Assembly (NCBI GenBank): GCA_009926305.1
Contig: RFPC01000025.1
Span: 1 to 32,032 of the forward strand
Source of the DNA: a bacterium
Lineage (GTDB): Bacteria; Bdellovibrionota_C; UBA2361; RFPC01
Direction of reading: 5' to 3'
Length of the DNA: 32,032 nt
The position numbers and the translations under genes were made by a program. Positions 10,627 through 30,041 of the stretch are shown here, one piece after another. Under the pieces are notes generated by a model that worked only from the letters and a program-made list of their open reading frames with translations, did no database searches and was not told the origin of the DNA. How positions within the stretch are numbered: position 1 is the first letter of the stretch; the number at the start of each line of letters is the position of its first letter.

Positions 10627-11457
10627 CTACTTCGGCAACTTCCCAGAGAAATATTCAGCAAGCCGATTGGCTGGAAGACGCACTCCCAAATAGAACTTCC
10701 CAAACTCTCCGTAAAGAGAAGTCGCATCATCAAAACGCATCTCGTACACCAAATCTTTAAAATTCTGCGGTGATTCAGAGAAGAGATCTACCCCCCACTC
10801 CCAATCATCAAATCCAATGGAACCAGTAATGACCTGCCTTACCCGGCCAGCATAACGCCGACCCGTCATGCCGTGCTCCATCATCAACTCTGCGCGATGA
10901 TCCAGCTCTTCGTGATACCAGTTGAATTTTTCCCCTCTTCTTTTATCCATCGGATAGAAACAGATATATCGCGTATCAGGGATTTCCGTGAATCGACGCT
11001 CAAGAAGGTGCTCTTTGTGCGGCTCCATCTTCGCTTTGTAGGCATTGTCCCATTCTTCAGTATGAGGTTTAAGCCCCTGCTCCCGAAGGGCCCTCACAAT
11101 ATTTTTTGTTGTATGGTACATGCCAAGTTCCACAACCGAAACATAAGAGTCCTGTTCTTTCAGGTATTCAGCTATAGACAACTGTGAGAGATCGAGCTCT
11201 ACCTGCGCACAATCAGAAAACTCTGGGCGAAAATGCAAAAAGAGAATTCCTCCTTTGTGTCCTAGGACATGATATGCCGCAGATTGACCTCGCTCCGAAT
11301 CATAAAGATGGCTTTGCTCCAAGTACTGCACGAGCTCGGCTACAATCTCTTCCCTTGCCTCTTCTGCAAGACGCTTTAAGCCAACCCAATCAATACCAAA
11401 AAACTGATGAAGCACTGCCCAACCATCAGCAGTATCAGGCGCAAACTGTCTTCCCAT
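10627..11457 (-). CDS. hemQ: HemQ / coproheme decarboxylase (chlorite dismutase family)
   Basis: A 276-aa member of the chlorite dismutase superfamily matching the HemQ (ChdC) group rather than true chlorite dismutases. Visible HemQ motifs are VVELGMY (residues 108-114), FYPMDKRR (167-174, with the radical-forming Tyr168), HG with the probable proximal heme ligand His195, and GSIGFDDWEWGVDLF (212-226). HemQ converts iron-coproporphyrin III to heme b by two oxidative decarboxylations, the last step of the coproporphyrin-dependent route. GGAGGAGAG stands two bases before the ATG, which lies inside the end of hemY (23-base overlap), so it is the last gene of the hemA-D-E-Y-Q unit. The family call is firm. 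Confidence 0.93.
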   Translation of the reverse strand: MGRQFAPDTADGWAVLHQFFGIDWVGLKRLAEEAREEIVAELVQYLEQSHLYDSERGQSAAYHVLGHKGGILFLHFRPEFSDCAQVELDLSQLSIAEYLKEQDSYVSVVELGMYHTTKNIVRALREQGLKPHTEEWDNAYKAKMEPHKEHLLERRFTEIPDTRYICFYPMDKRRGEKFNWYHEELDHRAELMMEHGMTGRRYAGRVRQVITGSIGFDDWEWGVDLFSESPQNFKDLVYEMRFDDATSLYGEFGKFYLGVRLPANRLAEYFSGKLPK

Positions 11458-12901
11458 ATCTCTCCTCCTCGTCCTTTTTCTCCTCGACTTTCCTCAGAAA
11501 ATCTTTATCCGCTCGGTCTGAAGAGCTCTGGCATGAGCGATCCATCCCTCGAAGATTATTTAAAATACTATGAGCCACCCGATATGACTCCTTCACACAG
11601 TCCGGTATTCCGACGCCTCGATAAGAGGTTCCGACGATGCTTAATCGCGGGAAAGGCTCTAGCGCAGCTGTAATCTGCTCTAGCCGTTCAGCATGGCCAC
11701 ATGCATATTGAGGCAAGCCCCTGTCCCATCGAGCTATCGTCTCATACTGAGGAGCCACTTCATAGCCGAGCTTGTGTGTAATCTCCTCGTGAGCGGCTGT
11801 TAATAAATCTTCATCAGAAACGGTAGATACTCCCCCATTTCTTCCGAAGAATATCCGGACCAGGAGCGTTTCTTTATCATTCCCTCGTCGAAAATCCCAT
11901 TTCTCAGACGAGTAGGTACATCCCGTTACATATCCCCCCTCATCTGAAGAAAGTAAATACCCACTACCCGTCGGACTTTGCTTCACGTGCTTTTCCGACA
12001 ACACCATAGTCACTACGGCTGACGACGCATGCTGTATAGCACTTAATTTTTCCGCAAGAACGGGCGAGAGCTCCTCCAATAGGTTTGCAGAAACCCACGA
12101 CGGAGTTGCTAGTACAAGCTGATCAAATTCCGCTGAGTCCCCCCTGGAAAATTCAACTCGATATCGTCCTTCGGTCGTCTGAAGGACTCTCTGAATCTGC
12201 GCATTCGTCTGTATGTTTGTCCGTTTCAGATTCTGACGTAATGCCTGAGGAAGCATTCCCATTCCATCTTTAAACGAGATAAAGCGCGCTCGATGATACT
12301 TTCCTCCCTTCGACTTGCTTCTATTCGCCATGTCTGGATACAAAGCACAAAAACTTAACTCATCAGCATTTCCGCTGTGGATTCCACCAAAAACCGTCTC
12401 GAAGAAATACTTCGAGACTTCTTTGCCGTATCTGCTTCGAAGAGTCGTTGCAATCGAGGGATCTCCATTAAGGGATGGCGAGAAAATCAGGTCGTACAAC
12501 CCTCTCACCGTTGCCATACACTTTCCGTACAGCGAAAATAGAGAGCATCGCCAGAGAGCCATCAAGTTTTTAGGCATCCCTTGAAGCATTCCTAGAGGAA
12601 CCCGATGAAGGACTCCTGCTCTTTGAATGGAGAAGGTTTTCTGTAGTGGTGAAATGATTTGACTCGATAGCCCGGTTTCTTCCAACAAGGCTTCTAACGG
12701 GGAACCCGCTCTCAGCAGCAACGAATCAGCCCCTCTCTCTATCACCTCCCCATTGGGACCGAGATCGGTCTGAACTTTACCTCCAAGTGAGTCGGCAGCT
12801 TCGAGGAGGGAGATATCGGCTTCAACATCTCCCCTTTCCAGAAAATAGGCCAGGGAGAGGCCAGAGACACCCCCGCCAACAATTCCGATTTTATGCGTCA
12901 T
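11435..12901 (-). CDS. hemY: HemY-type protoporphyrinogen/coproporphyrinogen oxidase
   Basis: A 488-aa FAD-dependent oxidase. The N-terminal dinucleotide-binding motif GIVGGGVSGLSLAYFLE (residues 6-22) is followed by a Glu-containing LLEAADSLGGKVQT stretch. FFETVFGGIHSGNADELS is the hallmark of HemY/PPOX, and the C-terminus has SIVGTSYRGVGIPDC, the FAD-contacting segment. In organisms with HemQ this enzyme normally oxidises coproporphyrinogen III to coproporphyrin III (then called CgoX). In others it makes protoporphyrin IX. Its position between hemE and hemQ favours the first. ATGA overlap with hemE and a 23-base overlap with hemQ indicate translational coupling. No truncation is seen. Confidence 0.93.
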   Translation of the reverse strand: MTHKIGIVGGGVSGLSLAYFLERGDVEADISLLEAADSLGGKVQTDLGPNGEVIERGADSLLLRAGSPLEALLEETGLSSQIISPLQKTFSIQRAGVLHRVPLGMLQGMPKNLMALWRCSLFSLYGKCMATVRGLYDLIFSPSLNGDPSIATTLRSRYGKEVSKYFFETVFGGIHSGNADELSFCALYPDMANRSKSKGGKYHRARFISFKDGMGMLPQALRQNLKRTNIQTNAQIQRVLQTTEGRYRVEFSRGDSAEFDQLVLATPSWVSANLLEELSPVLAEKLSAIQHASSAVVTMVLSEKHVKQSPTGSGYLLSSDEGGYVTGCTYSSEKWDFRRGNDKETLLVRIFFGRNGGVSTVSDEDLLTAAHEEITHKLGYEVAPQYETIARWDRGLPQYACGHAERLEQITAALEPFPRLSIVGTSYRGVGIPDCVKESYRVAHSILNNLRGMDRSCQSSSDRADKDFLRKVEEKKDEEERYGKTVCA

Positions 12902-13920
12902 CGGGCACTCTTCTCATGCACATAGTCAACAAGAAACTCGACATTCTTCTCAGGTGTTCCGGGCAAGACTCCGTGTCCGAGATTAAAGATATGTCCTGGT
13001 CGATTTGCTACTTCGGCAAGAATGCGATCAACCTCTTTACGAATGCGCGCTTGATCACAAAAGAGTATTGCAGGATCAAGATTGCCTTGAACCGCACATC
13101 GATATTCTAGCCGCTCCCAGCTCTCCGCCAGAGGAGTTCTCCAATCAATACCGATCACATCCCCCCCTGCTCTCTGCATGAGAGGCAGAAGAGAAGCGGT
13201 TCCTGTGCCGAAATGAATTAACGGCACCCCATTCTTCCCTACTTCTTCAAAAAGTGTCTTCATCTGCGGAAGAAGGTATTGCTCATAAGCGACTGGATGG
13301 AGCGCCCCCACCCAGCTATCAAAAAGCTGTAGCGCATCCGCTCCGGCACGAGCCTGTAAACCGAGATAGTCAACGGTTACCTTCACTAAGTGATCCATGA
13401 GCTGTTGCCATGCTTCTGGAAATTGATACATAAACTGCCGAACATGCTTAAAGTCCTTAGAAGGCTTTCCTTCAATCAGGTAAGCAGCCAGTGTGAACGG
13501 AGCTCCTGCAAACCCTATCAAGGGAATCTTGAGTTCTTTCTTGAGCAGCGTAATTGCTTGAGTGATAAAAGGAAGCCGCTCGTCCACTGAAAACTCTGTA
13601 AGACGGTTCACATCTTCAGGATTACGGATTGGTTCTTCGATCACTGGGCCAACCCCTGGAACAATATCAAAATCAACACTCATCCCAAGGAACGGGATAG
13701 TTATATCGGAAAAGAGAATCGCCGAGTCAACTCCAAACTGTTCAACTGGAAGGAGCGTGACCCGAGTGACCTCTTCAGGTTCTTGACACAACTCAAGCAT
13801 TGAGTACTTCGCCCGTATCTTTCGGTAGCTCGCTTGATATCGCCCAGCTTGCCTCATCAGCCATACAGGAGTGTATTCGGTAGGCTGACGACGACATGCT
13901 TGTAAAAAAGTATCATTCAT
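12898..13920 (-). CDS. hemE: Uroporphyrinogen decarboxylase
   Basis: A 340-aa enzyme that removes four carboxyl groups from uroporphyrinogen III to give coproporphyrinogen III. Both family signatures are present: PVWLMRQAGRYQASYR (residues 18-33, with active-site Arg23 and Arg27) and GFAGAPFTLAAYLIEG further on, plus LFSD with Asp72. The length is typical and no key residue is missing. The ATG at 13920 overlaps the end of hemD by 8 bases, and the stop overlaps hemY as ATGA, so it is a mid-operon gene. Its product, coproporphyrinogen III, is the branch point between the protoporphyrin and coproporphyrin routes; the downstream hemY and hemQ suggest the latter. Confidence 0.97.
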   Translation of the reverse strand: MNDTFLQACRRQPTEYTPVWLMRQAGRYQASYRKIRAKYSMLELCQEPEEVTRVTLLPVEQFGVDSAILFSDITIPFLGMSVDFDIVPGVGPVIEEPIRNPEDVNRLTEFSVDERLPFITQAITLLKKELKIPLIGFAGAPFTLAAYLIEGKPSKDFKHVRQFMYQFPEAWQQLMDHLVKVTVDYLGLQARAGADALQLFDSWVGALHPVAYEQYLLPQMKTLFEEVGKNGVPLIHFGTGTASLLPLMQRAGGDVIGIDWRTPLAESWERLEYRCAVQGNLDPAILFCDQARIRKEVDRILAEVANRPGHIFNLGHGVLPGTPEKNVEFLVDYVHEKSAR

Positions 13921-14788
13921 TACTCTCTCCGTGAGTCTCTTCTCGACATTTCATTGCTTCGTATTCAATCATCGCATCAATTATCCCATCAGTAGTATAG
14001 CGACTGGCGGAAATAACAGTGCGAGCCCCAAACTCTTTCGCGGTCTTACTCGTGATTGGCCCGATACTAACTACTGGCACCTCCTGCAACCAGGAGAGGC
14101 AACCTGCTTTCTCTAACAATCCGTGCAATCCACAGACCGTTGACGAGCTCGTCACCGTAATGAAATCAGGCTTAGAGATCGATTTCAACTTCTCCACCAT
14201 CGCGGGATCCTCATTCGGAATCACTCCATAGGTTGGCACTTCCGTAACGGCACCACCCCGTCTCTTCAACTCTTCTGGCAGCCACTTACGAGCAATATCT
14301 GCTCTAGGGAGGAGAAAGCGCTTACCGGCTATTTCGTCTAGAGCACTCGGAATTGCATCAGAGATGAACTCATCGGGAACGAGTTGTGGAGATATACCAT
14401 GCGCCTGTAATCGAGCAGCGGTTGCTGGACCGATTGCAATGATTCCCACTTGGTGTCTTATCTTCTCTACTGTCTCCGTTTCGGTACAGGCGGCCATCAC
14501 GGCATCGACTCCGTTCACACTTGTAAAAATAATCCAATCAAAGCCTTCAATTTCCTGGAGACTCTTCAAGAGTGCCTTTCCATGAGGGTGTTCTTTCTTA
14601 AAAGGAGACAGACAAATGGCAGGTATAGTGATTGGAACACCCCCCACCTGAGTAATTCGCTGCTCAAAATCCTCGGCTTGATGCTCTGGTCGCGTCACAA
14701 GAACTGCTCTTTCAGCCAGTGGCAACACAGCTTCTGTACGTGCTATTTGATTATTGCTCACAGAGATGCCTCGACTAGGAGATGACAT
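13913..14788 (-). CDS. hemD: Uroporphyrinogen-III synthase
   Basis: A protein of about 291 aa with the two-lobed HemD pattern: AVLVTRPEHQAEDF near the N-terminus, DWIIFTSVNGVDAV, IGPATAARLQAHG, LLPRADIARKWLPEELKRRG and DFITVTSSSTVCGL, ending with VVSIGPITSKTAKEFG. It closes and inverts hydroxymethylbilane to uroporphyrinogen III. The frame extends upstream to 14833, but the ATG at 14788 is preferred because longer starts add residues foreign to the family; it gives a 14-base overlap with hemA. The ribosome site there is weak, as expected for a coupled gene. hemC, which usually precedes hemD, is absent from the window. HemD is poorly conserved in general, but the motifs are clear here. Confidence 0.9.
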   Translation of the reverse strand: MSSPSRGISVSNNQIARTEAVLPLAERAVLVTRPEHQAEDFEQRITQVGGVPITIPAICLSPFKKEHPHGKALLKSLQEIEGFDWIIFTSVNGVDAVMAACTETETVEKIRHQVGIIAIGPATAARLQAHGISPQLVPDEFISDAIPSALDEIAGKRFLLPRADIARKWLPEELKRRGGAVTEVPTYGVIPNEDPAMVEKLKSISKPDFITVTSSSTVCGLHGLLEKAGCLSWLQEVPVVSIGPITSKTAKEFGARTVISASRYTTDGIIDAMIEYEAMKCREETHGESNE

Positions 14789-16070
14789 GTTGCCCCGAGA
14801 CAATCTTTCCATCTTGCAGGGTATTCGGCTCATCGAGCGGATTCAGGGGAAGCCCGAATTCGCTCCATGCACGCAACAGCGCTTCTCGAAGAGATTCCAT
14901 GTGCGCTTTTGTGTGAAGCGGAGTTGGTGTGATTCGAAGACGCTCGGTACCTGCTGGTACTGTCGGATAATTAATCGGTTGGATGTATATATCCTCATGC
15001 TCAAGAAGGTAATCGGTAACGGCCTTACACGTGCCTGAGTTCCGAACCATAAGAGGAATAATATGGCTTTCTGTCTGAAGAATCGGCAAACCTACCTCCG
15101 CAAGCATATGCTTTAGCTCTCTTGCGTTTCTTTGGTGGAGGTCACGTTCCTCTGAACTTTCCTGAAGATGTCGAATAGAAGCCAGTGCGCCTGCTGCGAT
15201 GACGGGAGGCAGAGAAGTGGTAAAGATAAAACCTGTTCCAAAGCTTCGGATAACATCGATGAGCAAGCTTGATCCCGTTACGAATCCCCCAACAACTCCG
15301 TATCCCTTCCCGAGACCGCCCTGGATAACATCCACACGGTCTGTCAGTCCGCATGCCTGAGCATAGCCACCGCCTTTGTGACCATATAACCCTACTCCAT
15401 GAGTCTCATCCAGGTATGTAAGCGCATTATACTCGTTTGCTAAATCACAAATCGCTTCAATCGGCCCAAAATCTCCACTCATTGAGTAGACAGATTCGAA
15501 GGCAATAATTTTCGGACGTTCTGGGGACACGCTTTTCAGTAACCGTTCAAGATGTGCAAGATCATTGTGCTCAAAAATATACTTTTCCGCCTTGCTGCCT
15601 CGAATCCCCTGGATCATCGAAGCGTGATTCTCGGAGTCTGAAAACACTACGCACCCAGGGAGGCTGCGCGCAAGTGTTGAGAGCGCAGTGACATTCGCAA
15701 CATACCCTGAGGAAAATGCTAAAGCTGCTTCTTTATCATGAAGTGAAGCGAGCTCTGCTTCCAATTCGACAATCGTTTCGTGATTTCCAGCGATATTTCG
15801 TGTTCCACCAGAGCCAGCGCCCGAAGAGTCTAGAGATTCGTGCATTGCTTGCAGCACGTTTGAATGATGACCCATACCGAGATAGTCGTTACTGCACCAT
15901 ACTACTACCTGGCGGGAGTCTTCCTCTCCCTGAAAGGTTACCTCTGGGAAGGTCCCTACTTTCCGTTTCAAATTTGCGAATACGCGGTACCGCCCCTCTC
16001 GATGAAGCCCATCAATAAGCTGTTGAAGCGTCTCCTGGTATTGAAATCCATTCGCTTTTTCTTCAGACAT
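14775..16070 (-). CDS. hemA: 5-aminolevulinate synthase (C4/Shemin pathway)
   Basis: A 431-aa PLP enzyme that condenses glycine and succinyl-CoA to ALA. It is separated from KBL/BioF relatives by EGRYRVFANL (residues 25-34), WCSNDYLGMG (58-67), SGGTRNIAG (87-95) and INYPTVPAGTERLRITPTP near the C-terminus, all ALAS features. DETHGVG (221-227) and the PLP lysine Lys255 in GGLGKGYG are in place; the loop differs from the usual TLAKAFG. The ATG at 16070 follows GGAGGAG; the frame runs on to 16229, but those 53 codons lack family similarity. It is the first gene of the hemA-D-E-Y-Q unit. The gene is not a glutamyl-tRNA reductase despite sharing the symbol hemA. Confidence 0.96.
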   Translation of the reverse strand: MSEEKANGFQYQETLQQLIDGLHREGRYRVFANLKRKVGTFPEVTFQGEEDSRQVVVWCSNDYLGMGHHSNVLQAMHESLDSSGAGSGGTRNIAGNHETIVELEAELASLHDKEAALAFSSGYVANVTALSTLARSLPGCVVFSDSENHASMIQGIRGSKAEKYIFEHNDLAHLERLLKSVSPERPKIIAFESVYSMSGDFGPIEAICDLANEYNALTYLDETHGVGLYGHKGGGYAQACGLTDRVDVIQGGLGKGYGVVGGFVTGSSLLIDVIRSFGTGFIFTTSLPPVIAAGALASIRHLQESSEERDLHQRNARELKHMLAEVGLPILQTESHIIPLMVRNSGTCKAVTDYLLEHEDIYIQPINYPTVPAGTERLRITPTPLHTKAHMESLREALLRAWSEFGLPLNPLDEPNTLQDGKIVSGQHVIS

Positions 16071-16130
16071 GGGGCTCCTCCACAATAATTGAAAACCGCT
16101 TATCTGCCCGTTACGATTCAGAATCTCACA

Positions 16131-16174
16131 CGTTCGGTTTTGAAGAGTAGATGGCGTTCGGTCACAGAACCGAA
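16131..16174. promoter_or_regulatory. Repeated CGTTCGGT motif with inverted copy upstream of hemA
   Basis: CGTTCGGT occurs at 16131-16138 and again at 16155-16162. An inverted ACCGAA at 16169-16174 makes TTCGGT-6-ACCGAA a perfect inverted repeat. All lie in the 200-bp gap between divergent hemA and the SDR gene, 60-105 bases upstream of the hemA start. They may be operator half-sites or a leader hairpin. The repeats are observed; regulation is inferred. Confidence 0.35.
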
Positions 16175-16242
16175 AAGGATAAAATTTTTCACGGAAACTA
16201 GGTGTTGAAGACCGTTTTATGACGTACAATCAGGCACACAGA

Positions 16243-17156: not shown

Positions 17157-17285
17157 GCAATACTACCATCAGCAGCCTGCTCGTGTTGCAGTATTCTCAC
17201 TAAAAAGCACTGAAAATTCTTATAGTTGGATGGAGAGCATTTCTTCGGTATCATGGAGAGTAATGCGCGTCATAAAGAAAGAGAA

Positions 17286-20252
17286 ATGACACAAGAAGAA
17301 GATTCCACGAATTCATATCGCTCGATTGCACAACGGCTCTTACACGCCCATAAAGAAAAGTTTGGTCAAGCCTTCGAGCGATTCTATCGGCCTGAGATTA
17401 TCCGTCGCGAGGGAAGCCCGCTAGAGCGTCTTGCCGAGGAGCCGCTTGCTCTCGTCCAGGGTTCGGATACTGGGGGCTTAAGCGATCCAGAGTTCAAGTC
17501 TTCGTTGAAGATCAATGCCAACCAACTTGCGGAAAAGCTGTACCATCTTGCTGCCAATGCTTGGGATAGGAATATCAACACGTACCTCAAGGCATTTGAT
17601 AATTATCTGGAAGAGTATACGTGCGAAGAACAGCGTATATTTCTCGAAGAGTTAGTCAGTGCATTTAAGAAGCAATACTCTGCGGAACTCCTGGAGCGTG
17701 GAGAAAGTATTGAGCTTATCGATCAAATAGTGAAAAGAACCGGGGAGTCCACTCGCACACGACTCGAGAAAGTCCTTGCTGGAGCAAACATTACCGAGCT
17801 AACCAAAGAGATCTGGGAACTATTTTTTAGTGCGGATTCGGGGAGCAAAGGGGAAATTGAGCGCATTCTTCTCGATCTTACAAATCACCAGATTCGGGAG
17901 CTTCGCGTTGCATTTGCAGACTATCCAGCTCTTCTCCTTGCAAACGTGTTAAAAGAGAATCTCCCAGAAATCAGTATTGAATCAGACGAAGAACACGAAC
18001 CGAAGAAACAGGATACAGAGAATAAAAAAGAAAAGAAGGTCGTCAACCAATTCAAGCTTGAAGCGCTTCGCTATCTACTAAGAGGAAGAGCTCCGTATGA
18101 AATTAAACGAATTGAAACAGCCTACAATGACGTCGTGAAGTCAGAGAAAGAACCAGATCTCCTAGAGCATATAACGCGTGCATTCCCGCTACAACTTCAC
18201 AACGAGCTACTGGGACTGCTTGAGGGTGAAAATCTGAAAGACTCTGCTGCTCGAATCATCAAACTCTTCACCGAGTATCAACAATCGCCCCCTAAGCCTA
18301 CTCCGCTACCACCGCGTATTAGCGAAAACTTACCTACCATTACACCTGAATATACATCATTCTTCTGGAGAAGAAGACTATTTCATGAATCATCAACTGC
18401 TTTTGACTACGAACTCGAGGGCTTTCAGGAGATTCTCGCTGAGGTTGGGCTCCTTTCTCCTTTTCTTCTAGAGCGTCTGGACGCAATGATACGTGAAGCA
18501 AGTGACTTGTCGCTTTCCCTAAGGCTCTATCCTCGGGGACGAGCAGATTCTCCAGCACGAACAGCTGAAAGATTAAGAGATGCCATTAGCAACTCTGAAA
18601 GCTCCCGCTGTGCTCTATCACATATTTATGGATACACTCCAGGAGAAATGGCTCGTGTACGCAAGGCGTACGCTACTCGCTACGGTGTCTCCCTCGAAGA
18701 AGATCTCACTCCCTACTTATCTGGGGATACATTTCAAGAGCGTCTCATAAAAGCTCAAGCATCCGGACTACTCCGTGCTCAGTTTCATGTCGATCTCCTC
18801 TCAATTTTCCTGCCCGCGGAAAAGCACCCGGCGGGAAGTGCTCTTACGACTACTCCTTTTGAGGAACGCCTTCATCAAACCGCTGTATTTTTGCAACAAG
18901 AAAAAATAGAGACCTTTGATGAACTGAGAGAACGTCTCAAGCAGATTGCTCCATCAAAGCTCTATATGCTCGAGGCTGAGTTTGAACTCACAACAGAACA
19001 ATCGCTAAGGCGCTTACTTCCCGTTTTTTCCTCGAAAGACAAGAAAAAAGCCCTTGCTCTTTTTAATGGGACTGATGTTCAGGTGGTCACTGCTGCCATG
19101 GTTGAAAACATGGAGGATGCGCTTGAAAAATATTGGATTGGGCTTTCAAATCAAGAAATTGAGGTTATCGACGAATCCTTTTCTCACGGGGCAAAACGTT
19201 CACTGCTTACTGTTCTTCTCGAGAAGCTTACCATTGCAGGAACGAATGTTGCTCTGATTCAGGAGGCACTCATACAGCTGCTCTCGGTCGAAGCGATTCA
19301 AATCCGGGAAGAATTACGAGCCATAAATCTGAAGCAAGAAGGTGCTTCAACGGAACCTGCCAGATGCATTATGGAGCTCCCGTATCCAGCGCTTCGCTTC
19401 CTAGAACATGCTTACAGCCAGAGATATGGAAGCCTCAGGAGACATCTCCTTTCACTTGTATCTGGCGGATTCATTACAGAAGAGTGGTTTGGCAAACTGA
19501 TATATAGACTCGAAGGGATTGATTCCGCAATCATCGACGAGATTGAGATTGGGCTTTCAGAAAATGACTCGAAAAAGTTAAGGATGATATTTTTGGAGTT
19601 AGGATATCAGTGCCGAACCGTTGAAGAAGTCTTTCTTTTGGAAAACCAAAACGAATCGATAAAAACTGCCATTATGGGAATGAGCGGTGCTGAAGATGAG
19701 CGAGCTGAATCAGTCCTCTACTTCCTTGGATACTATCCAGACAAAGTTGCCAAGTTCGTGGAGGAGGCGCTAGCCGAGAACGAGGTAAGCGTTAGGACGA
19801 AAAGGCTGCAAGAAATCTTTAGAGATCCGTTAAATCCAGCTTCTCCAAATCCTTTACTTCCAGGCGACCTAAACTGGATTAATGAAATGTACATCCAGGT
19901 AAGACGGAGATTCTTCTTGCAAACTGGCGGTTTTCTCATGCCCCAATTACTCGATAGCGGAATACCTCTGGAACTCTCAACGAGTTTAAAACTTCAATTA
20001 TTTGGTTCGGATACTTCTCTCATCGTGGATGAGATTGCAGATACGATAAGCAATCAGGATGCGGACGAGGCGCTCGCTCAGTATCTTTGCTCGCGACTGA
20101 AAGACTCTCCTCCCCGGTATATCAGAGGCATTAGAGAGCTTTTCTCGTGCCTGTACCCAAAAGAATCTCTAGAGGAACGACTGAAAAAATCACCATCTTC
20201 GAAAGCGAAGAAGGCACTTGAAGTTCTTCTTCGTTCGGGCTCATATCAATAG
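17286..20252 (+). CDS. Giant annexin-like helical-repeat protein
   Basis: A soluble protein of about 988 aa without signal or membrane segments, predicted almost wholly helical. It contains recurrent units resembling the annexin repeat. The clearest is at about 421-490, where L-x-x-A-I, then GYTPGEMARVRKAYATRYG, SLEEDL and LSGDTF follow the annexin order. A second at about 654-740 has LEHAYSQRYGSLRRHLLSL and SGGF. Degenerate units are visible near 126, 277, 564, 868 and 951. The Ca-binding GxGT loops of eukaryotic annexins are not evident. Residues about 230-255 form a Glu/Lys-rich spacer. Upstream in-frame starts exist at TTG 17226 and ATG 17253; 17286 is chosen for its purine-rich leader. 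Membrane or lipid binding is inferred, not shown. Confidence 0.75.
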   Translation: MTQEEDSTNSYRSIAQRLLHAHKEKFGQAFERFYRPEIIRREGSPLERLAEEPLALVQGSDTGGLSDPEFKSSLKINANQLAEKLYHLAANAWDRNINTYLKAFDNYLEEYTCEEQRIFLEELVSAFKKQYSAELLERGESIELIDQIVKRTGESTRTRLEKVLAGANITELTKEIWELFFSADSGSKGEIERILLDLTNHQIRELRVAFADYPALLLANVLKENLPEISIESDEEHEPKKQDTENKKEKKVVNQFKLEALRYLLRGRAPYEIKRIETAYNDVVKSEKEPDLLEHITRAFPLQLHNELLGLLEGENLKDSAARIIKLFTEYQQSPPKPTPLPPRISENLPTITPEYTSFFWRRRLFHESSTAFDYELEGFQEILAEVGLLSPFLLERLDAMIREASDLSLSLRLYPRGRADSPARTAERLRDAISNSESSRCALSHIYGYTPGEMARVRKAYATRYGVSLEEDLTPYLSGDTFQERLIKAQASGLLRAQFHVDLLSIFLPAEKHPAGSALTTTPFEERLHQTAVFLQQEKIETFDELRERLKQIAPSKLYMLEAEFELTTEQSLRRLLPVFSSKDKKKALALFNGTDVQVVTAAMVENMEDALEKYWIGLSNQEIEVIDESFSHGAKRSLLTVLLEKLTIAGTNVALIQEALIQLLSVEAIQIREELRAINLKQEGASTEPARCIMELPYPALRFLEHAYSQRYGSLRRHLLSLVSGGFITEEWFGKLIYRLEGIDSAIIDEIEIGLSENDSKKLRMIFLELGYQCRTVEEVFLLENQNESIKTAIMGMSGAEDERAESVLYFLGYYPDKVAKFVEEALAENEVSVRTKRLQEIFRDPLNPASPNPLLPGDLNWINEMYIQVRRRFFLQTGGFLMPQLLDSGIPLELSTSLKLQLFGSDTSLIVDEIADTISNQDADEALAQYLCSRLKDSPPRYIRGIRELFSCLYPKESLEERLKKSPSSKAKKALEVLLRSGSYQ

Positions 20253-22906: not shown

Positions 22907-23968
22907 ATGAACTACAACACCCTCTATTCTCTTCGATCCCCGACGGCTACTGTTATCAAGAGTATCCTAGTCGGGATTCTCATTTTTGCCCTCTACCCAT
23001 TCTCCTCTCAAGCAAAGGCAGAGACAAACGTGATCGAACTTGATAATGCGTCGTTCATACAATTACTGCAGGCGGTTACTCCACGGGATTCAAAAGCGGA
23101 CAAAATAAGAGAAGCCCTAATGGATATCATCACACGAGCGCCAGAGTCCGTTTGGGGAGTCGAGGTAAGTGACTCAGGGAACTCAGGTCTCTTTACAGCT
23201 CTAGGAGCTCTCGAGAACATTTTACGACTCGATACTGCTGGAGGCCAGATCTATGAACCAGGACTACTTACCAACTATTCTTCCCCACTAAATGGCGATC
23301 CAAACTTAAGTGGAATTTGTGTAATCATCGGTGCAGCAAATTCGGTTTGGAACACGCTAAAACTTGGGAATAAAAAAGATGCTACTGACAGCAAAGGAAA
23401 CTTCGAAAAAGAGTTTCTCAAGAAAATAAAAAATGCAACATCCAATCCATCTCAGTGGGGGGTCTCTACGGAGGAATACTCAACGGTCTATTCAGCGATA
23501 GCCGGAGAAAAGATTACGTGCGAGACCTCGCTTCTTAAAGGTCCCAAAGATATTAACCGCTGGAAAAAGCAGTTACTATCTGACCTAGCAAAAGGCTATG
23601 ACTGTAGCCTGAGTATCCGAAAGACGGGAATATTTGATCCTAATAACGGGACAATTGAAATGGCTTGGGGACATAATTGGAAGGTAAACTCTGGACATAA
23701 TGCCGGTGATGGAAAAGTGTCATTAAACCTTCTCGAAACTGGTAGGCAAGGAGATGGAAACGGACACAACGTGCAGGCGGAGGGGCGTTCAACACAGCGC
23801 CTCTCTATAAAACCCAATACATTTAAGCCTGGCGAGTTCAGCATTCATATGTTTAAAGGTATAGATAGGCATCTCTGGAACCACTTTTTGAAAAATCAAC
23901 TCAATGATGAAGTAGAGGCAACATGCTGCTACCCTGATAGTAAGCAAGATTCCGCAAACTTCAATTGA
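22907..23968 (+). CDS. Secreted hypothetical protein between direct repeats
   Basis: A 353-aa precursor with an N-terminal hydrophobic signal (residues about 14-34) and probable cleavage after SSQAKA (residue 38). The mature protein is polar and has several Cys (including a CC pair in ATCCYPD near the end). A Gly/His/Asn-rich tract (about 249-285, with GHNWKVNSGHNAGDG) could bind metal or form a beta-rich surface. No family is recognised. There is no Shine-Dalgarno before the ATG. The gene sits alone between two 99-bp direct repeats, which suggests insertion or duplication around it. An exported effector or structural protein is possible, but no function is claimed. Confidence 0.7.
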   Translation: MNYNTLYSLRSPTATVIKSILVGILIFALYPFSSQAKAETNVIELDNASFIQLLQAVTPRDSKADKIREALMDIITRAPESVWGVEVSDSGNSGLFTALGALENILRLDTAGGQIYEPGLLTNYSSPLNGDPNLSGICVIIGAANSVWNTLKLGNKKDATDSKGNFEKEFLKKIKNATSNPSQWGVSTEEYSTVYSAIAGEKITCETSLLKGPKDINRWKKQLLSDLAKGYDCSLSIRKTGIFDPNNGTIEMAWGHNWKVNSGHNAGDGKVSLNLLETGRQGDGNGHNVQAEGRSTQRLSIKPNTFKPGEFSIHMFKGIDRHLWNHFLKNQLNDEVEATCCYPDSKQDSANFN

Positions 23969-26057: not shown

Positions 26058-27056
26058 ATGAGTCAGTTTCCGCATTTTCGATTCCGTCGACTTCGTTCAT
26101 CAGAGACTGTCAGGACGCTAGTTCGAGAGACAGAACTCTCCCTCTCTAATCTTATTCAGCCGCTCTTTATCGTCCCAGGCTCAGGAATAGAGAAAGCCAT
26201 CAGCTCTCTTCCTGGACAAGCACAACGAAGTATCGACAAATCAATAGAGTACGGTCGCCAACTCTCAGACCTTGGCATCACCTCAGTGCTTCTATTTGGA
26301 CTCCCTGAATTCAAAGACGAAACCGGGAGTGCGGCTTGGCAATCCGATGGGATTATCCAAGAGACCATTCACGCCTTCAAACGTGAACTTCCAAATATGC
26401 TCGTAATCACTGACCTCTGTTACTGTGAATACACCTCTCATGGGCATTGCGGGATCTTGAAAGATGGAGATGTCGATAACGATGCAACCCTTGAAATACT
26501 TGCTCGACAGGCTATCTCTCATGCTGAAGCCGGAGCTGATATGATCGCCCCAAGTGGTATGATGGATGGCATGATTGGTTGCCTCAGATCCCATCTTGAT
26601 GAACATAGATTTCAAAATATTCCCATCATGAGCTATGCAGCGAAGTATGCCTCTGCATGTTATGGACCGTTTCGAGAAGCGGCTGACTGCGCTCCATCTG
26701 AAGGAGATCGCAGGTCATACCAAATGGATCCCGCAAACACAGACGAAGCTATGCGAGAAGTGCTTGCTGACTTAGAAGAAGGGGCAGATATCGTAATGGT
26801 CAAGCCAGCACTCATGTACCTCGATATTATCCAGCGGGTAAAAGAAGAGTTTCGAGTTCCAACAGCCGCTTATAACGTGAGCGGTGAGTATGCGATGATC
26901 AAAGCAGCCGCTGCCAATGGATGGATAGACGAAAAACGAGTTATGCTCGAGTCACTCCTCTCGATGAAACGAGCTGGAGCAGATATCATCATCTCGTACT
27001 TCACCGAACAAGTTGCAAGAACCTGTACCGTGAACGGTCGAGTCCAAATCTGCTAA
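26058..27056 (+). CDS. hemB: Porphobilinogen synthase (ALA dehydratase), zinc type
   Basis: A 332-aa enzyme that condenses two ALA to porphobilinogen, the second step of tetrapyrrole synthesis. The zinc site [13 protein letters not shown] is intact (Cys121, Cys123, Cys131), so this is the zinc-dependent form. The Schiff-base lysines are Lys196 (SYAAKYAS) and Lys249 ([11 protein letters not shown]). The length is typical. It stands apart from the hemA-D-E-Y-Q operon by about 10 kb, divergent from proS. AGGA lies about 10 bases before the ATG. A stem-loop at 27127-27150 may end its transcript. Confidence 0.97.
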
Positions 27057-27344: not shown

Positions 27345-30041
27345 GTGGTTATGCTGCCAAAGAAGAGAAAAACTGACACATCCAGAGGTCAAACGACTCA
27401 CAAGAAACAAAGAGTTGGGAGTCGAAATGATGAAAGGAGAAGGTTTCAGGCCTCCTCAACTGAACTCGCTAAGACTACTCCTCATACAGAGCCAAACGAC
27501 ACTCACAGTGCTGGCGGTCTCGCACTTGATACAGACCCAATCGAACTCTCCTTGAGTGATGAGCTATTACAAAACTCAGACACGGATTCATCTTCAGCTC
27601 AGAAAAATCACCTACACGTCCTTCACCGAAACCAAGAACTGGAGGAAGACTTCACTGAGGAGCCTTTTGAGCACACAGAAGTTTCAGATTTCATCTCACC
27701 AACTTCATACGACCTTCGACTCGACTCCCCTTTTCAAATCGAAATTGATACCGAACCAGAGAGAGAGCAAACCCTGACACCGATTCTGCCGAAAACGGAA
27801 GGACTTGGCGGGCTTGGTCTGCCAGAGAATGATGTGAGCGATATTGACGATAACCATCTTTCTTTCGAAGGACTCATCCAAGAAGGTTCGAGCGAACTTG
27901 ACGCTCTCTCTGAAGCACTTCAGAACTATCTCGATACGACCACTGAGCGAAAAGCGATAGATGGAGCCGCACTCGGATTGCGAGCCACTCAGGAAGAACA
28001 CGAATACATCCCGGATAAGGTGGGCTTTCGGCATATCGGAAACCCGGAAGAAATCCTAAAAAAACTAGAAACGGTCGGCTATATCTGTCAGCCGTTTATT
28101 GCAAGCCAAGTGGCCCTGCTCTTAAAAACCGAACTCAACAGCATCTCATCGGTCATGATGGAAGGGCCGTCTGGATGCGGAAAAAGTTTTCTCGCAAAAT
28201 CACTCGCAAAAATTACTGGAGCAGAACTGATCGTAGTCCAATGCTATAAGGGCATGCAAATGGACCACCTGATCGAAAAAACCTCAGATGCTGCTGTTGC
28301 TCAAGCCATGACAGGACATGAGGTGCCGAAAGATGACCTTGTGCCACTTGGGCCGATCTCACAAGCCTTCCTCAAGTCCAAAGAAAAGCCAGTAATTCTT
28401 CTCGTTGATGAAATCGATAAAGCTGATTGGGCAATTGATACTTTCTTCCTCGGCCCTATCCAAGATGGAGTCGTACGACCAGCGTCTCGTCCGGCAATTG
28501 AAGCCGATAGAGACAACCTTTTAATCATGTTCACCAAGAATATGGAACGCCCCTTAAACGATGCGCTACTACGACGGGTTCAGCCAATAAAAATGGATTA
28601 TATGAAGCCCGAATTGGAGGAAAAAGTGCTCTCAAAGCACTGCGCCTCAATTCTCGTTGAGAACCTGATTCATGTGGCTCGAATAATGCGCTATCCAGAT
28701 GAGGCATACCCAATTGAAAGGGCTCCCGCACCCGAAGAACTTCTGAAAACAGGAAAGTATATCACTCAACTGCTTCAGTGGCATATTACAGACTACGCTT
28801 TCATCGGTAAAAATATTTGGTACATGCTTGCTAAGTCAGAGAAAGATCGAGAATCGTTTGAAAACCTTCTCCGACTTCACCCGGACTTCCAAGATCCGCT
28901 CGTCCCCGACAATCGAAATGCAACCCAGTATCAAATCTTCGCACGATTGGGACGCTTTGTGCTTGATGGCATCGTTGATGATCCAACTTCGGAACTCAGA
29001 AAAAATGCCTATCGTCCTGAGGGTATTGGCTGGCACACGGCTGGCACTCCGAATGAGCTCACCAGGAAGTTAAGCGAAGTAGGCTATCAATGCCTTCCGT
29101 TCGTAGCACAACAGATATCACTGCTTCTCAATACACCAACAAAGAAGGTTCGTAGCCTTCTTCTTGAAGGCCCGTCAGGGTGTGGAAAAAGCTTTATGGC
29201 AAAGTGCCTTTCTAAAATTGTGGGCGCAGAGATGATGTGCCTCAGTTGTTACCCTGACATGGACACTGAATTTCTCGTTGAAAAGCCATCACAAATTGCC
29301 ATGCTTGAATCAAAGTCAGGAACCCGGACGCCCAAACGAGAAGAACTCGTTGAGCTGGGTGTCATAGCAAAAGCTTTCCAAAAATCAAAAACTCAGCCTG
29401 TTCTCCTTCTCATTGACGAGATTGATAAAGTTGGCCCTCACCTGGACACCTTTTTTCTTGGGCCGCTACAAGACGGCACGATCTGGTGCCAGTCGCGTCC
29501 ACCTATTGATGGAAACGTACAGAACTTACTCGTGGTTTTTACAAAGAATATGAACAGAACACTTGATCAGGCGCTGCTGAGGAGACTTCATCCCATCAGA
29601 ATGACATATCTCGATTCAACACTTGAAGAGAAGATTCTGTCAGAACATTGTCATCCTCAACTGGTTGCTAACCTCGTATCCATTGCAGACAGGATGCGAC
29701 AAAGCGATGGTTCATACGCATTTCAAAGACCTCCTGCGCCGGAAGAGCTGCTTACCGCTGGTCACTACCTCATGAAAATGATCGAATGGGGAGATATCGA
29801 CTTCGGAGAAGCAGGACGTAATATATGGGCGATTATCTCCAAATCAGAGCATGACAGAGCTGTTCTTGAGCATATGCTACGATTTCATCCAGACTTTGAA
29901 GACCCACTTGTACCTGATAGCCGTAATGCTGACGTATCAGCGATCGAGGCACGCCTTGGTCGTTGGGTTCTCCGTGGCCTGATTGAGGATCCGAATGAAG
30001 AGGCGCGTCAAGATGCGTGGTTTGAAGGCGGATATAACTAA
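27345..30041 (+). CDS. Tandem double MoxR-like AAA+ ATPase
   Basis: An 898-aa cytosolic protein. Residues 1-215 are acidic, Ser/Thr-rich and look disordered. Two homologous modules follow with a period of 335 residues. Walker A GPSGCGKS lies at 274-281 and 609-616, Walker B LVDEID / LIDEID at about 353-358 and 689-694. Sensor-1 FTKN is at 396-399 and 732-735, and an Arg-finger-like LLRR at 408-411 and 744-747. Each ends in PDF-x-DPLVPD-x-RNA and LGR-[FW]-VL. Both appear catalytically complete. MoxR-type ATPases remodel or load partner proteins, but the VWA partner usually next door is absent. The start is a GTG at 27345 with GAGAGG 6 bases before it; an ATG follows at 27351. It leads a same-strand run with the next two genes. 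Confidence 0.9.
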   Translation: MVMLPKKRKTDTSRGQTTHKKQRVGSRNDERRRFQASSTELAKTTPHTEPNDTHSAGGLALDTDPIELSLSDELLQNSDTDSSSAQKNHLHVLHRNQELEEDFTEEPFEHTEVSDFISPTSYDLRLDSPFQIEIDTEPEREQTLTPILPKTEGLGGLGLPENDVSDIDDNHLSFEGLIQEGSSELDALSEALQNYLDTTTERKAIDGAALGLRATQEEHEYIPDKVGFRHIGNPEEILKKLETVGYICQPFIASQVALLLKTELNSISSVMMEGPSGCGKSFLAKSLAKITGAELIVVQCYKGMQMDHLIEKTSDAAVAQAMTGHEVPKDDLVPLGPISQAFLKSKEKPVILLVDEIDKADWAIDTFFLGPIQDGVVRPASRPAIEADRDNLLIMFTKNMERPLNDALLRRVQPIKMDYMKPELEEKVLSKHCASILVENLIHVARIMRYPDEAYPIERAPAPEELLKTGKYITQLLQWHITDYAFIGKNIWYMLAKSEKDRESFENLLRLHPDFQDPLVPDNRNATQYQIFARLGRFVLDGIVDDPTSELRKNAYRPEGIGWHTAGTPNELTRKLSEVGYQCLPFVAQQISLLLNTPTKKVRSLLLEGPSGCGKSFMAKCLSKIVGAEMMCLSCYPDMDTEFLVEKPSQIAMLESKSGTRTPKREELVELGVIAKAFQKSKTQPVLLLIDEIDKVGPHLDTFFLGPLQDGTIWCQSRPPIDGNVQNLLVVFTKNMNRTLDQALLRRLHPIRMTYLDSTLEEKILSEHCHPQLVANLVSIADRMRQSDGSYAFQRPPAPEELLTAGHYLMKMIEWGDIDFGEAGRNIWAIISKSEHDRAVLEHMLRFHPDFEDPLVPDSRNADVSAIEARLGRWVLRGLIEDPNEEARQDAWFEGGYN

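Follow-up and report, generated by a model that had tools for sequence, protein, structure and literature searches.

The locus and its genes

The window, i.e. the whole stretch of 32,032 nucleotides that was analysed, carries two genes of interest, one of which encodes a very long protein built of degenerate annexin units (polyannexin) and the other an ATPase:

17286..20252, + strand: polyannexin gene, an ORF of 988 aa with ~11 degenerate annexin units (Pfam, PDB profile, Foldseek, conserved homologues)
27345..30041, + strand: tandem AAA+ ATPase gene, 898 aa; in relatives, a homologue lies immediately upstream of polyannexin
~27996-29000 and 29001-30038, + strand: the two AAA modules of the ATPase, each with a Walker A (GPSGCGKS) and a Walker B motif

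The polyannexin reading frame is open from a TTG at 17226 to the stop at 20252, and the ATG at 17286, which lies behind a purine-rich stretch, is likely its start codon. Full-length homologues with 20-36% identity are present in other species of the order, meaning that the ORF is a real and conserved gene. A scan of the locus for promoters and terminators was uninformative.

Upstream of polyannexin lie an epimerase-like gene and a haem-synthesis cluster, and an acyltransferase-like gene follows on the opposite strand (the haem and acyltransferase names are our own reading of the sequences). Haem-synthesis-like genes (hemG-like, hemE, hemD-like, ALAS-type and hemB) surround both polyannexin and the ATPase gene (11435-16229 and 26058-27056), and positions 22907-23968 encode a 353-aa protein whose N-terminus has a hydrophobic, signal-like stretch and which matches nothing in Pfam. 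In the congener G002 (L086, 4979-7093), a tandem AAA+ gene sits right behind the epimerase gene, which is the place of polyannexin in the window.

Searches with a family profile found polyannexin in 15 of 46 genomes of its phylum, all 15 within one order, and in none of ~337 genomes from other phyla. The phylum is small and made up of 'delta-proteobacterial' metagenome-assembled genomes (MAGs); close relatives with named records are MAGs, several of them labelled delta proteobacterium, and their isolate names (e.g. ErkenSummer and Loclat) suggest lakes as the source. PHROGs, PADLOC and plasmids yielded no match for the polyannexin of the window.

Annexin ancestry

The clearest single match is found at residues 427-481, which score 26.3 bits against the Pfam annexin model PF00191 (cut-off 25; E 8e-6). 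Two further family members, L030 and L031, also pass this cut-off, and 7 of the 16 members match PF00191 at E 0.1 or better. When a profile of these 16 full or partial homologues was searched against PDB sequences, nearly all matches were annexins (best 6e-7). Cutting the alignment into segments, which was done to rule out that unit 5 alone carries the annexin signal, gave a match to annexin VI for residues 520-655 (E 3.5e-6), while residues 238-420 and 817-988 had annexin 6b3i (E 0.012) and annexin III (E 0.025) as their best matches, both weak when taken alone. Segment profiles of residues 66-225 and 656-816 returned no annexin match worth counting, so the units in these stretches rest on the register described below and on the structural model. 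Taken together, the whole-family profile and three further non-overlapping segments support the annexin homology of polyannexin well.

Structure prediction agrees with this assignment. The AlphaFold model of the window protein, made from 10 sequences, is all-helical with a mean pLDDT of 67, reaching ~75-90 across most of residues 600-988, and the model of a relative, made from its own alignment, has a similar helix layout at pLDDT 74. Searched against the PDB with Foldseek, both models place annexin VI first (5.7e-8 and 2.5e-6). For the second model, all 50 matches listed are annexin structures or annexin fusions; for the first, annexins take nearly all of the leading places. In these models, whose confidence is moderate, polyannexin thus has the predicted five-helix fold of the annexin repeat. 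The same moderate confidence (pTM 0.39 and 0.48) leaves the overall shape uncertain, and superposition of the full length on annexins gives low TM-scores and a high rmsd. The units thus match, and their overall arrangement either differs from the annexin tetrad or is poorly modelled.

A preliminary description, made from the window's letters, had read residues ~421-490 as annexin-like, in agreement with the Pfam match above, and had named profile searches and structure comparison as checks. Both favour annexins: the family profile and segment 520-655 do so by sequence, and in predicted fold no other family fits the two models as well as annexins do.

Annexin repeats also occur outside polyannexin. 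The window's own genome encodes a second, classical annexin ORF of 242 aa (L035, contig 5, 3897-4622, minus strand) with a GTDE loop and 50 bits to PF00191; it lies near a contig end and may belong to a gene that is longer or interrupted. Other members of the phylum encode very large ORFs (1,400-4,400 aa; L116, L118, L121, L125, L127 and others) in which one or a few annexin repeats are found. An 11-bit annexin match in a 2546-aa ORF on contig 20 was treated as noise.

Repeat units along the chain

Eleven units can be laid along the protein, with C-helix anchors placed from helix boundaries at residues 113, 200, 270, 392, 452, 556, 622, 700, 776, 862 and 943 (all on the + strand):

Unit 1, residues 66-166, 17481..17783: helix layout and weak register; no significant annexin match alone
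Unit 2, residues 167-235, 17784..17990, then a charged linker: in register with units 7, 11 and 5 (P 8e-6 to 3e-4)
Unit 3, residues 238-315, 17997..18230: in register with unit 6 (P 6e-6); 6b3i is the top match of its segment profile
Unit 4, residues 316-422, 18231..18551, with a proline-rich linker inside: least certain unit; helix layout of the model and register test
Unit 5, residues 423-508, 18552..18809: canonical-looking repeat; carries the PF00191 match; annexin IV in the PDB, E 1.7e-4
Unit 6, residues 520-596, 18843..19073: within the 520-655 segment that matches annexin VI
Unit 7, residues 597-668, 19074..19289: 520-655 segment; in register with unit 5 (P 7e-7)
Unit 8, residues 669-744, 19290..19517: register; pLDDT mostly >70; no profile match alone
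Unit 9, residues 745-815, 19518..19730: in register with unit 8 (P 5e-5); model
Unit 10, residues 816-911, 19731..20018, with an insert before helix C: model; 817-988 segment (annexin III)
Unit 11, residues 912-988, 20019..20249: in register with units 6, 2 and 5 (P 6e-6 to 4e-5); 817-988 segment

In profile-profile alignments of all 55 unit pairs, 35 were in register, i.e. within 5 residues, compared with 3-10 of ~52 when the anchors were shifted (eight sets). Four pairs with P <0.01 did not keep the register; three of these consist of adjacent alignment windows with residues in common, and the fourth, units 2 and 6, shows an offset of 15. As the anchors were chosen by inspection, this test is supportive rather than blind. 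Degenerate copies do fill the rest of the chain as the preliminary description had it, to a total of ~11 units by register and helix layout. Its second annexin-like stretch, residues 654-740, is unit 8, which has no annexin match of its own and is in register with units 9, 6 (P 2e-4), 3 (7e-4) and 11 (0.003).

Calcium loop and N-terminus

A motif search found the GxGT(D/E) calcium loop in none of the 16 homologues, a lack that the preliminary description had suggested. According to our reading of alignment and model, the E-to-A linkers and the majority of A-B loops are short compared with those of classical annexins. None of the 16 members has a likely membrane helix, making polyannexin probably cytosolic.

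The most conserved part of the protein lies outside the repeats:

17361..17393, + strand, residues 26-36: N-terminal motif FGQAFERFYRP (YxGExFDQFYRP in relatives), with invariant G27, F30, R35 and P36

This stretch has the highest information content, as judged from fewer sequences, and is part of a tail (residues 1-43) that is predicted to be disordered (AlphaFold pLDDT <50). It is perhaps a docking site for the ATPase, for which we infer it to be a candidate.

Genomic association with a tandem AAA+ ATPase

In every member of one genus (f11) that could be tested, polyannexin is directly preceded by a tandem AAA+ gene of the same strand, and most of the loci read at the DNA level have ~20-30 bp between the two genes. 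The ATPase of the window is 58% identical to this upstream ATPase over 693 residues; here, its gene is found on the same contig 7.1 kb downstream of polyannexin, with other genes between. Walker A and B are intact in both modules of the copies read, in the seven of polyannexin genomes from f1 and f11 and in G014.

The two genes also tend to occur together. The AAA+ gene is of the tandem form in 12 of 12 polyannexin genomes in which the form was readable, and order members without polyannexin mostly have a single-module AAA+ of ~360-470 aa (8 genomes with the single form), giving a two-by-two Fisher value of 1.4e-4 that is uncorrected for kinship. Leaving aside the G002 module, the single forms cluster in a tree. 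The close relative G002 has a tandem AAA+ with a strongly diverged N-terminal AAA module and no polyannexin seen; G009, on long branches in the tree, likewise combines a tandem AAA+ with no detected polyannexin. Both genomes are incomplete (86% and 89% for G002 and G009, respectively). Conversely, G016 has polyannexin and no detected AAA+.

The ATPase is of the AAA_5 type, and its closest named relatives are midasin, MadB and GvpN. NCBIfam scores amount to 131 of 475 bits for MadB and 40 of 267 for GvpN, both below the cut-offs. MoxR was considered as a name and dropped because no MoxR-specific model was reached among the NCBIfam matches listed, and its PADLOC matches appear to reflect general similarity among AAA proteins. 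No VWA-domain partner gene was recognised in the neighbourhoods listed, part of whose genes were profile-scanned. Our literature search returned neither a link between bacterial annexins and MoxR nor a description of the NCBIfam MadB ATPase.

Possible roles

While the anatomy of polyannexin is well supported, its function we infer. With its AAA+ neighbour, a partnership in protein remodelling looks more plausible than simple membrane binding, and we tentatively favour, as quite possibly correct, a cytosolic, calcium-independent and elongated scaffold or adaptor of ~11 units that serves the tandem AAA+ ATPase encoded with it. Polyannexin would hold a client or the inner face of the membrane through its helical surface and contact the AAA_5 (midasin/GvpN-like) ATPase, perhaps via the FYRP motif, whereupon the motor might remodel the client at the expense of ATP. 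Its part would be analogous to that of the VWA proteins serving MoxR ATPases. The fuller version, in which a tandem AAA+ motor and a giant annexin-derived solenoid form a two-gene machine with the solenoid as a calcium-free adaptor replacing the VWA partner of MoxR, we regard as more speculative and somewhat doubtful. Several observations speak against the favoured reading: adjacency is conserved in one genus only, the window has 7 kb and other genes between the two, and G009 and G016 each have one gene detected without the other. Moreover, the AAA+ may have other work, as it is far more conserved than polyannexin (82% versus ~36% identity within the genus).

Alternatively, polyannexin could be a scaffold at the membrane surface that acts independently of the ATPase, with annexin units binding lipid head groups in a calcium-free manner to line or brace the inner membrane. 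Its annexin ancestry and probable cytosolic location would suit this role, as would the basic N-terminus (GGKKIVFKKR) kept in most relatives. However, the window member lacks this basic stretch and is acidic overall (157 D+E versus 124 K+R), and the linkage to and co-occurrence with the tandem AAA+ would be left unexplained, making this reading rather unlikely.

Polyannexin might also be acted upon by the ATPase as its client, e.g. as a structural subunit that is assembled or disassembled, instead of being its adaptor. This draws on the same gene-linkage evidence and would fit the much faster change of the polyannexin sequence, yet sequence cannot tell a client from an adaptor, and we consider it decidedly unlikely.

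A calcium-binding annexin with an unrecognised site is very improbable: the window protein and that of a congener do have a GTD at a unit junction (residue 595 in the window), but it sits at the E-to-A turn rather than in the A-B loop and is absent from most members, and the A-B loops are mostly shortened. Most improbable of all is that polyannexin is a helical repeat protein of another family (HEAT, TPR or the like) and looks like an annexin by chance. Alpha-solenoid proteins (the TBCD complex and mTOR) do occur among the weaker Foldseek matches of the first model, which would suit this reading. Against it, annexins top every sensitive search, several separate segments reach annexins independently, and the agreement of profile, fold and register tests excludes a chance resemblance.

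Comparison with known systems

Annexins are known to bind membranes under calcium control and to have four repeats, in rare cases eight. Lacking the GxGT(D/E) site and the four- (or eight-) repeat core, polyannexin belongs to the annexin superfamily without being an annexin sensu stricto. A conserved eleven-unit family without the calcium motif suggests that a long scaffold can be built by extending the annexin fold, and the AAA+ linkage suggests that annexin units have been reused as a scaffold that is worked on by a protein-remodelling motor. New here is the polyannexin gene directly behind a tandem AAA+ ATPase gene in one genus; this tie is a concrete hint at a possible job of polyannexin, and the pair can be tested as a system by co-expression.

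Bacterial annexins as surveyed earlier have one to five recognised units (five in Corallococcus), mostly with GxGTD; further diverged repeats are suspected, and fusions to toxin, protease or lipase domains are known for some of these proteins (Kodavali et al. 2014, PMC3894181). Polyannexin resembles them as a bacterial protein with PF00191-type repeats and differs in its ~11 units, none of which has GxGTD, in having no recognised fused enzyme and in its AAA+ linkage.

Its best fold match, annexin A6 (PDB 1avc and 1m9i), is a long annexin in the PDB whose eight repeats form two compact calcium-binding tetrads, whereas polyannexin has eleven units with shortened A-B loops. Global superposition of the two fails (TM-score ~0.1-0.2), indicating that the arrangement differs or is poorly modelled.

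With regard to the ATPase, genes for MoxR ATPases frequently accompany those for VWA proteins, and the two are believed to remodel clients together (PMC12657314). Like the pairs RavA-ViaA, NorQ-NorD and CbbQ-CbbO, the AAA+ gene adjoins that of a large adaptor-like protein. Unlike in these pairs, the partner is annexin-derived rather than a VWA protein, and the ATPase is a tandem AAA_5 protein that stays below all NCBIfam cut-offs seen. Midasin, MadB and GvpN are its closest named relatives, the latter two at scores far below their family cut-offs.
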